DNA from: Onthophagus taurus
Taxonomy: Eukaryota > Arthropoda > Insecta > Coleoptera > Scarabaeidae
Length of the DNA: 64,000 nucleotides
Direction of reading: 5' to 3'
Assembly: GCF_036711975.1 (NCBI RefSeq)
Contig: NC_091970.1
Location: 1,619,501-1,683,500, forward strand
The position numbers were made by a program, and so were the translations under genes. The notes under the pieces were generated by a model. The model had not been told where the DNA came from, did no database searches, and saw only the letters and a program-made list of their open reading frames with translations. Positions within the stretch are counted from its first letter, which is position 1; every line of letters starts with the position of its first letter. This document shows positions 12,901 through 14,667 of this stretch, piece by piece.

Positions 12901-14667
12901 TGGGTGGAAGTTCTAATGGTCAAGAACATAGAGAAGGTAATTAAATTCATTATTAAAAAGAAATTTAATTTTTTTGAATTTTAACGTAATGTTTTATTTA
13001 TTTATTCAATTAATTTTTAAAAAATGATTCAATTTGAGTCGATTTTTCAAAAAATTACAATTTTTAATATGCTATTAACAAAGTTAAACAAATAAAAAGA
13101 TTTTGGGTAAATAACCTCAATGTTGATTTGATATCTGTCAAGATTTTAATTAATTTTTATTTAAGTTATTTACTACTAGATGGCGCGAGAAAAATGTAAA
13201 ATTTTTTTTTATTTTTAACGAAATTTTTTAATTATTTATTCAATTAATTTTTAAAAAATGATTCAATTTGAGTTGATTTATCAAAAAATTAAATTTTTTA
13301 ATATGCTATAAACAAAGTTAAACAAATAAAAAGATTTTGGGTAAATAACCTCAATGTTGATTTGACATCTGTCAAGATTATAATTAATTTTTATTTAAGT
13401 TATTTACTACTAGATGGCGTGAGAAAAATGTAAATTTTTTTTTTTATTTTAACGAAATTTTTTAATTATTTATTCAATTAATTTTTAAAAAATGATTCAA
13501 TTTGAGTTGATTTTTCAAAAAATTACAATTTTTAATATGCTATAAACAAAGTTAAACAGATAAAAAGATTTTGGGTAAATATCCTCAATGTTGATTTGAT
13601 ATCTATTCTGTCAACATTATAATTAATTTTTATTTAAGTTATTTACTACTAGATGGCGCAAGAAAAATGTAAAATTTTTTTTTATTTTAACGAAATTTTT
13701 TAATTATTTATTCAATTAATTTTAAAAAAATGATTCAATTTGAATTGATTTTTCAAAAAATTGCAATTTTTAATATGCTATAAACAAAGTTAAACAAATA
13801 AAAAGATTTTGGGTAAATAACCTCAATGTTGATTTGACATCTGTCAAGATTATAATTAATTTTTATTTAAGTTATTTACTACTAGATGGCGCGAGAAAAA
13901 TGTAAATTTTTTTTTTATTTTAACGAAATTTTTTAATTATTTATTCAATTAATTTTTAAAAGATGATTCAATTTGAGTTGATTTTTCAAAAAATTACAAT
14001 TTTTAATATGCTATAAACAAAGTTAAACAAATAAAAAGATTTTGGGTAAATAACCTCAACGTTGATTTGACAACTGTCAAGATTATAATTAATTTTTATT
14101 TAAGTTATTTACTACTAGATGGCGCGAGAAAAATGTAAATTTTTTTTTTATTTTAACGAAATTTTTTAATTATTTATTCAATTAATTTTTAAAAAATGAT
14201 TCAATTTGAGTTGATTTATCAAAAAATTACAATTTTTAATATGGTATAAACAAAGTTAAACAAATAAAAAGATTTTGCGTACTTAACCTCAATTCTAGTT
14301 GCAATTTGACGTCTGTCAGTGTCAAAATTATAATTAATTTTTATTTTGTAGTGGAAAAGTATCATGTAATTACATCTGGTGCTACGTTAGAAGATAGGTC
14401 TTTATCTCCAGCTGCTTATTCACCGCAACCACAACCGGTAATAGTACAACCGGCGAATTATGCTTATACAACGTAAGTACTTAACCTAACTTTTTTTAAA
14501 AAAAAGTAATTTATTTTATTTTGATTAGTGAAATTAATTATGGGGATCCGGGGTTGGATTTAAAAAGACACATTGACGATCAGGGGAGCCCGGAAAGTGG
14601 TGAGGAACCCCAGGATCCCTTTCATAAGTGCAAAAGGCCTAAGTCCGAGCCGTACGAGACGGAGTGA
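969..14667 (+). CDS. FoxK: Forkhead box protein K (FHA + forkhead transcription factor), 7 exons
   Basis: Exons: 969-1393, 8254-8495, 11007-11461, 12471-12616, 12674-12936, 14352-14472, 14529-14667. All junctions are GT/AG, phases agree, and the product is 596 aa. The FHA domain (about residues 61-160) spans exons 1-2 and continues as [14 protein letters not shown], very like vertebrate FOXK. Exon 2 carries the FOXK signature [19 protein letters not shown]. The forkhead domain starts near residue 314 ([14 protein letters not shown]) and includes [18 protein letters not shown]; it is split exactly before [25 protein letters not shown] and SAPGSP follow as in FOXK1/2, and a basic stretch KCKRPKSEP sits near the C-terminus. 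The family comprises nuclear DNA-binding regulators; FHA domains bind phosphothreonine peptides. TGA at 14665-14667 overlaps a possible donor (GA|GTGAGT), so a longer isoform is conceivable. Confidence 0.95.
2690..3010. repeat. Degenerate ~22-bp GCAGTAT minisatellite
   Basis: The words GCAGTATNT and TCTTC/TTCTG recur roughly every 20-24 bp (for example AGCAGTATTTACTTTT, AGCAGTATCTTATTTT, AGCAGTATCTACTTTT). It is the reverse-complement relative of the modules of the 225-bp satellite at 32.7-34.5 kb. It lies in FoxK intron 1. Confidence 0.7.
3345..6450. repeat. TGACATTT satellite, ~226-bp units with 206/185-bp variants
   Basis: Using the phrase CAGAAGTTCTAA as anchor, units start near 3680, 3886, 4071, 4296, 4482, 4708, 4914, 5140, 5366, 5572, 5798, 6024 and 6250. 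Spacings are 226, 206 or 185 bp, so units differ by loss of ~20-bp blocks, and the array has a ~20-bp sub-periodicity of (T)GACATTT. It fills much of FoxK intron 1 and runs straight into the ACCGGAAGT-type repeat that follows. Confidence 0.95.
6451..6840. repeat. Fragment of the ACCGGAAGT / ATGAGTCCAAAC interspersed family
   Basis: Contains, in order, AAAAGTTAGAATAAAAA, AGTTAGCAACAATGAAGA, TTAATACCAACCTTAA, ATGTCAAAATGACATTGA, AACCGGAAGTTGCTTATA and CTCATTTTAAAGGATTTT. The same order occurs in the arrays at 36-38.6 kb and 58.2-60.5 kb. It is a single unit inside FoxK intron 1. Confidence 0.85.
7020..7560 (+). promoter_or_regulatory. GC/CpG-rich unique island in FoxK intron 1, possible alternative promoter or enhancer
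   Basis: About 540 bp of non-repetitive sequence with far more CpG than its surroundings, about 700 bp before FoxK exon 2. It has pyrimidine-rich stretches, a CACGTG-containing word near 7240, and short overlapping ORFs without recognisable domains. A regulatory island or alternative first exon is the simplest reading. The promoter role is inference. Confidence 0.35.
8530..10830. repeat. ~325-bp satellite in FoxK intron 2
   Basis: The phrase CATGATGGAGAATTATTTTT recurs near 8611, 8935, 9260 and 9585 and onwards, giving a 324-325-bp period and about 7 copies. Each unit consists of two related halves of about 160 bp, both containing TACCAACCCAAC. The array occupies nearly all of the intron between exons 2 and 3. 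Its left edge begins within a few tens of bases of the exon 2 donor: exon 2 reads through into ACCAACCCAACTCAAAA if unspliced. Confidence 0.95.
11700..12420. repeat. Two direct copies of a ~120-bp segment in FoxK intron 3
   Basis: The phrases TTTTATGACCGAATATATTT and TAAGTGAGGTTATGT...CACTTCAAAATCGT occur at about 11715-11825 and 12295-12405, about 585 bp apart. The rest of intron 3 (11462-12470) is AT-rich with nothing recognisable. Confidence 0.8.
12955..14330. repeat. ~233-bp satellite filling FoxK intron 5, with a CTCF-like word in each unit
   Basis: Units carry TTGGGTAAATAACCTCAA, ACATCTGTCAAGATTATAA and TTTACTACTAGATGGCGCGA. The AGATGGCG word lies at 13178, 13412, 13651, 13884 and 14117 (spacings 234, 239, 233 and 233 bp). 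A last partial unit runs into exon 6. The word CTACTAGATGGCGC closely resembles the metazoan CTCF core. The array begins within about 20 bp of the exon 5 donor. Confidence 0.95.

Follow-up and report, generated by a model that had tools for sequence, protein, structure and literature searches.

CTCF-type words at the junctions of a locus-private tandem repeat in a FoxK intron of Onthophagus taurus

The window analysed here is a stretch of 64,000 nucleotides from Onthophagus taurus (contig NC_091970.1, positions 1,619,501 to 1,683,500 of the forward strand). In it, an intron of the FoxK gene is occupied by a tandem repeat that carries, wherever two copies meet, a word similar to the binding site of the protein CTCF. 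The question raised by this locus is whether the word is of CTCF type at all, and whether its repetition means anything. Judged from the sequence, the assignment of the array word to the CTCF type is partly supported, and the CTCF reading gains indirect support. We tentatively favour the view that local amplification has multiplied a usable CTCF-type site and that the 3' end of FoxK may act as a modest boundary.

The host gene is FoxK, as the initial annotation had it. The plus-strand open reading frames (ORFs) of the window contain FHA and Forkhead domains according to Pfam, and the best PDB matches of the FoxK ORFs are FOXK2 and FOXK1; the ORF at 8231–8563, which we read as FoxK exon 2, gives no Pfam match. 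The stop codon lies near 14,665. Since the exon ending at 12936 and the exon starting at 14352 share one continuous frame, the intron between them spans 12937–14351 ("intron 5" in the initial annotation's count of FoxK introns); its G+C content is 18%. Mismatches of the words are scored against a 16-letter CTCF consensus, CCRNYAGRKGGCGCYA, with 15 specified positions, and not against an insect weight matrix. The features of the intron are as follows.

12937–14351, plus strand: FoxK intron, GT...AG, flanking exons join in frame (sequence)
12955–14336, plus strand: private tandem array of period 233 base pairs (bp), its copies 94% alike; six bodies, two of them partial, and a word at each of the five junctions (Tandem Repeats Finder, TRF; unit alignment; genome search)
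13173–13186, plus strand: CTCF-type word copy 1, CTACTAGATGGCGC, 2 mismatches to CCRNYAGRKGGCGCYA
13407–13420, plus strand: CTCF-type word copy 2, CTACTAGATGGCGT, 3 mismatches to CCRNYAGRKGGCGCYA
13646–13659, plus strand: CTCF-type word copy 3, CTACTAGATGGCGC, 2 mismatches to CCRNYAGRKGGCGCYA
13879–13892, plus strand: CTCF-type word copy 4, CTACTAGATGGCGC, 2 mismatches to CCRNYAGRKGGCGCYA
14112–14125, plus strand: CTCF-type word copy 5, CTACTAGATGGCGC, 2 mismatches to CCRNYAGRKGGCGCYA

TRF reports the array with period 233, 5.7 copies and 94% matches at 12969–14293, and the unit alignment extends the homology to about 12955–14336. The array was described as filling the whole intron, which is nearly so, though not quite all of 12937–14351 is covered. 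It was also described as five units of about 233 bp, each with a word; the five words and the period stand, but the alignment resolves six repeat bodies and five junctions, with CTACTAGATGGCG in every junction, and the first and last bodies are partial, reach the splice sites and lack the word. Array-filled introns seem usual in FoxK, for between the FHA ORF and the Forkhead ORF two more stretches are taken up by arrays, a different one each (3350–6453, periods 21, 103 and 411 bp; 8532–10819, 325 bp; TRF).

All five words are real: CTACTAGATGGCG occurs exactly, on the plus strand, with starts at 13173, 13407, 13646, 13879 and 14112 and a spacing of 233–239 bp. The positions given at first (13178 and so on) do mark starts, but those of the shorter AGATGGCG; CTACTAGATGGCG begins at 13173 and so on. 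The 14th letter is C in four of the five copies and T in one. The CTCF core is AG(A/G)(G/T)GGCGC, preceded by CC(A/G)NY and followed by YA. This core is exact in four of the five copies, with GCGT in the fifth, and the flanks of the array words depart from the CTCF flanks, with T as second letter and G or A where a pyrimidine (Y) is expected. Hence the motif scan, run here with the 16-letter consensus instead of an insect matrix, bears out the core and not the flanks, with 2–3 mismatches per word. In the whole window, CTACTAGATGGCGY with at most 3 mismatches has 16 matches against 2.07 expected, and the consensus with at most 3 mismatches has 18 against 2.2 (among them two that mirror others on the reverse strand); none of 100 shuffles reached 16 or 18, respectively.

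We have also counted the words in the genome, with the same pattern reversed as control. The consensus CCRNYAGRKGGCGCYA occurs 368 times against 1 for its reverse, CTACTAGATGGCG 41 times against 2 (five of the 41 being the FoxK array), CNNNNAGATGGCGC 1,558 times against 52, and AGATGGCG 11,464 times against 2,787, that is, one per 25 kb. These counts are not counts of independent events, since repeats contribute to them: 8 of 30 fetched loci share flanks of the CAACAAGATGGCGCGCC type (presumably transposase codons), dispersed families carry the word, and CCAACAGATGGCGCCA recurs often among the CCRNYAGRKGGCGCYA matches listed. The word-bearing families named here come mostly from C1 to C3, the genome matches looked at being the first places (about 100). 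For the flanks, 100 sites were taken as listed (5,819 matches); 33 near-identical family copies were dropped by eye, leaving 67, and 4 more by script, leaving 63. Of these 63 sites, 26 have C directly after AGATGGCG, 19 have T, 14 have A and 4 have G (for C, P = 3e-7), a pattern more in keeping with CTCF than with YY1/Pho. Outside seven large arrays, AGATGGCG is locally dense in the window, with nine occurrences in 48,011 bases, four of which belong to the intergenic repeat described below. A search of the open literature for AGGTGGCGC in connection with CTCF and Drosophila gave no match.

Does the host have a protein that could read this core? A CTCF ortholog is found at C1:27292759-27293694, with 55% identity over the zinc-finger region (E 3.8e-105); it scores 358 bits against 133 for the next match in the genome, and its best PDB match is human CTCF. 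Fingers 3–5 of CTCF read the core. The contact residues of finger 3 (TGER) and finger 4 (ESKR) are identical to those of human CTCF, and finger 5 has DFKR against human DYKR, Phe replacing Tyr. The host thus encodes a CTCF that is predicted to read this core. Human CTCF is described as binding a 15-bp motif with fingers 3–7 (PMC8084297), and one survey reports CTCF transcripts in almost all of its arthropod assemblies (PMC5094011). Overall, the core, the 368 to 1 enrichment, the preference for C over G as next letter (26 to 4) and the near-unchanged core-reading fingers speak for the name "CTCF-type word" used in the initial annotation, and the conservation test discussed below does not.

The same core recurs in a second repeat, which lies outside the coordinates of the initial annotation.

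15944–17900, plus strand: older diverged intergenic repeat, spacing 350–536 bp, located after the FoxK stop codon and ahead of a CBM_14 gene (repeat finding; pairwise identities 57–89%)
15980–15990, plus strand: AGATGGCGCTA, intergenic unit 1, 3 mismatches to the 16-letter consensus
16401–16411, plus strand: AGATGGCGCTA, intergenic unit 2, 3 mismatches
16938–16948, plus strand: AGATGGCGCTA, intergenic unit 3, 2 mismatches
17464–17474, plus strand: AGATGGCGCTA, intergenic unit 4, 1 mismatch

All four words have the exact core AG(A/G)(G/T)GGCGC. An alignment of about 110 bases on each side of them has 69 invariant columns out of 266; among its 256 windows of 11 columns, AGATGGCGCTA itself is the sole one without variation. 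It is also the longest invariant run (11) of the four copies in a longer alignment, followed by AATTTGACAG and GTTGGTAGCT with 10 each. Because the copies were chosen by the 7-letter AGATGGC (a longer pattern had already brought up two of them), it is the remaining letters, GCTA, that are largely free of bias; their invariance in all four copies has a probability of about 0.005 by the overall column rate. The intergenic words, then, stand apart by their retention through divergence and not by their match to the consensus. A common origin of the two repeats was considered and rejected, since their local-alignment scores were equalled by shuffled sequences in 7 of 60 and in 34 of 60 trials. In the genome search the intergenic repeat is nearly private, with four places here and one short match on C10.

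Some features of this repeat are worth recording in their own right. At 16119–17315 a kept module, GTTGGTAGCTTTGAAG ... AATTTGACAG ... ACAGGTTAGTGAAAC, is repeated, and by eye it is like a promoter plus a short first exon with a donor site. It has a relative at the C10 locus, where a GTGAAGTTGGTAGCTT island has a diverged CGCTAGATGGGGTGA about 300 bp upstream; we take the two to share a promoter-like module. Scanning 15900–16000 for bacterial-type promoters was uninformative.

Within the FoxK array, 215 of 240 aligned columns and 68 of 228 13-column windows are invariant, and the word sits in one of two 39-column invariant runs. When three unrelated young arrays are pooled, namely the FoxK array, one on C3 (200 bp, five copies, one of them 2.3 kb apart) and one on C1 (377 bp, five copies), a single word column varies against 5.81 expected (P = 0.010). 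The C1 array, near 1.439 Mb (L021–L024), has CCACTAGATGGCGCTA in four copies and CCACCAGATGGCGCTA in one, and the C3 array, near 28.845 Mb (L043), has CTACTAGATGGCGCTA in five copies. The words of both match the CTCF consensus better than those of the FoxK array do.

In the reading that we tentatively favour, a FoxK intron segment with one CTCF-type word would have been amplified in tandem and the array kept uniform, probably by unequal exchange, leaving the word five times on one strand. The word would probably be a usable, not an optimal, CTCF site, and CTCF may bind at least some of the copies. Acting together with the four same-strand intergenic words, CTCF would probably mark off FoxK, by a modest boundary, from the CBM_14 cluster downstream. 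Since four to five sites of such a C2H2 protein are reported to replace fly boundaries (PMC8084297), and tandem CTCF sites to act as insulators in the Pcdh and beta-globin clusters (PMC7087399), the dose is plausible.

On the other hand, a number of observations weigh against this boundary reading. The test set beforehand, whether the word is better conserved than its flanks, was not significant in the FoxK array: none of the 13 word columns varies against 1.83 expected (P = 0.12, stratified by base type), the second 39-column run is without the word, and the letter right after the 13-letter word varies in one copy. Without FoxK, the C3 and C1 arrays give P = 0.06, and since it was the exact word that led to these two, the pooled result leans towards conservation. 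The array words have 2, 3, 2, 2 and 2 mismatches to the 16-letter consensus and the intergenic words, with 3, 3, 2 and 1, are overall no better. A fifth intergenic unit lacks the word yet keeps GTTGGTAGCT and AATTTGACAG; as these two are nearly as well kept, conservation there is not special to CTCF. Genome-wide, the upstream CC of the CTCF motif is weak: C at −5 is found in 17 of the 63 sites (P = 0.009, uncorrected), and none of the other upstream positions in these sites falls under P 0.01. Fingers 6 (QNSA vs QGTM) and 7 (RTDI vs RSDV) of the ortholog differ from human at several contacts. Word-bearing arrays are, by a rough hand estimate, no commoner than chance capture. Finally, CTCF is described as rare at topologically associating domain boundaries in fly embryos, whereas its sites are reported to coincide with the majority of boundaries in BG3 cells (PMC8084297).

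The close rival of the boundary reading, and a serious possibility, is neutral hitch-hiking: an ambient AGATGGCG word would have been caught in an amplified intron segment, and its repetition would be functionless even if CTCF sometimes binds. Besides the conservation result in the FoxK array, the abundance of tandem arrays favours it. They make up 6,410 of 30,000 bases (four arrays) in a random sample of six 5-kb stretches, 18,407 of the 64,000 window bases (16 arrays), and 8,189 of 99,454 bases (13 arrays) around word sites, the last sample being 33 of the 42 loci L001–L042, with L009–L012 and L020–L024 (the FoxK and C1 arrays) left out. Two array families, with 287-bp and 377-bp spacing, are among the first 100 AGATGGCG sites, which all fall in the initial 2.94 Mb of C1. 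A hand calculation puts the number expected there by chance at about 3, given some 84 other words, a unit of 250 bp and roughly 390 arrays (four in 30 kb, scaled up). There is thus no hint of arrays gathering the word. Against hitch-hiking stand the unrelated repeat about 2 kb off, which bears the same core, kept in four copies despite strong divergence, and the local density of AGATGGCG compared with one per 25 kb, though the intergenic repeat accounts for four of the nine. The suggestion that the array is a CTCF sink is rejected by the same rough hand estimate, which leaves no excess of word-bearing arrays over chance capture. As a separate observation, CCGCTAGGTGGCGCCA, a full CTCF-consensus match, recurs mostly at 49-bp spacing at C1:22285040-22285300 and C1:22327575-22327831.

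Could the word and its unit instead derive from a dispersed transposon or satellite family? Some AGATGGCG words elsewhere do sit in dispersed repeats, e.g., ATTATTGATAGATGGCGCTCATAT, or in the flank-sharing families. However, a 472-base query of two units has four matches in the 290.8-Mb genome, all inside the FoxK intron array, in a search that passes over very common words and could miss diverged AT-rich relatives of the unit. At this sensitivity the unit, with its 5.7 copies, is a single-locus repeat, and it shows no resemblance beyond shuffles to five other word-bearing units. A dispersed origin is accordingly very unlikely. A genome-wide satellite and transposon debris as the source of the FoxK array word were both rejected on the query result, and the label "satellite" given to the array at first is wrong in the usual sense, because in this search the unit is confined to one locus. 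Rfam and tRNA searches of the window gave no matches.

It is similarly hard to credit that the word is a YY1/Pho (GCCAT-type) site and not a CTCF one. The YY1/Pho core is AAGATGGCGGC, and the site continues with GGC after AAGATGGC. AGATGGCG overlaps this core, but the array words read TAGATGGCG, followed by C or T, and so do not match it; moreover, the genome-wide next letter (C 26, G 4 of 63) and the 368 to 1 enrichment of the CTCF consensus point away from YY1/Pho. Two further facts are on its side. The window array at 53386–56331 (422 bp x 7) has 13 AGRKGGC words, of which the 10 shown are all CAAGATGGCCG, nearer to the YY1/Pho-type word than to CTCF, and the Firre R0 repeats are reported to bind CTCF and also YY1 (PMC4820808).

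Very unlikely too is a role in RNA, with TTACTACTAG/ATGGCG as a decoy 3' splice site or a cryptic 16-nucleotide exon (ATGGCGCGAGAAAAAT before GTAAA): every junction, where the copies meet and the word sits, does have TTACTACTAG and then GTAAA 16 nucleotides on, but the pyrimidine tract is, by eye, weaker and more A-broken than in the real FoxK acceptors, a 16-nucleotide exon would shift the frame, and both intergenic DNA and other arrays contain this core as well.

Beyond the intergenic repeat lies a cluster of CBM_14 (peritrophin-like) genes at 18803–27401, with ORFs at 18803, the first downstream of FoxK, and at 23365, 24366 and 26769; 23365–24006 (minus strand), 24366–25043 and 26769–27401 are near-identical copies. 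A further word stands on its far side.

31023–31038, minus strand: CTCF-type word CCAAGAGATGGCGCTA, 1 mismatch, past both the CBM_14 cluster and an OCD/mu-crystallin gene

Nine plus-strand words therefore face one minus-strand word across the cluster. Two unrelated repeats might each have multiplied a CTCF site, the nine co-oriented sites and the opposed one at 31,023 forming a repeat-built, orientation-dependent CTCF boundary around the cluster. We regard this stronger proposal as improbable; with so few independent groups, the arrangement of nine facing one may well be chance.

Other features of the window are noted briefly. Just upstream of the FHA ORF there are divergent AGATGGCGT words at 712–727 (minus) and 780–795 (plus), with 3 mismatches each. 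A 117-bp unit forms nine short arrays of about 2.3 copies at 36641–41166 and 58288–63671 (TRF). With the seven large arrays set aside, ACCGGAAG, which we take to be ETS-like, shows the strongest enrichment of any 8-mer having four or more G+C (29 against 0.5 expected).

If CTCF binds here, the array would be the insect counterpart, lying in a gene that codes for protein, of the CTCF arrays that repeats such as Firre carry in mammals, and individuals differing in copy number would differ at one stroke in how many architectural sites they have. Should CTCF not bind, private repeats and abundant AGATGGCG words would together produce striking periodic motif patterns with no function. The FoxK array also offers a test of whether function is gained by tandem repeats that have merely picked up an ambient CTCF word.

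As to known systems, the tandem CTCF sites of the Pcdh and beta-globin clusters are not known to have arisen as units of a tandem repeat, and the DXZ4 unit is about 3 kb, in dozens of copies. Among the matches listed from the open-access literature, mostly titles and the starts of abstracts, there was no insect tandem repeat carrying CTCF sites. The fly boundaries and the butterfly Antp-Ubx boundary share with the FoxK array a clustering of CTCF motifs, either within an intron or between regulatory domains, but these reports do not describe them as tandem repeats, and the fly boundaries were tested in transgenes and the butterfly one was mutated (PMC8084297, PMC10945631). At Pcdh and beta-globin, likewise, several CTCF sites lie close together at one locus, but they were edited and tested in mammals (PMC7087399). 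DXZ4 is a tandem array too, termed with FIRRE "tandemly repeated CTCF/YY1 arrays"; it is X-linked and a megadomain boundary of the inactive X, unlike the 5.7 x 233 bp of the FoxK intron (PMC6985041). The Firre R0 repeats of mammals are also single-locus and intronic and involve CTCF, but their copies are discontinuous, lie in a long non-coding RNA gene and have experimental CTCF binding with no canonical motif (PMC4820808), whereas the FoxK copies are head-to-tail, lie in a protein-coding gene, have a near-canonical motif and are known here from sequence alone. Overall, the nearest known kinds are DXZ4 and the local intronic repeats of Firre.

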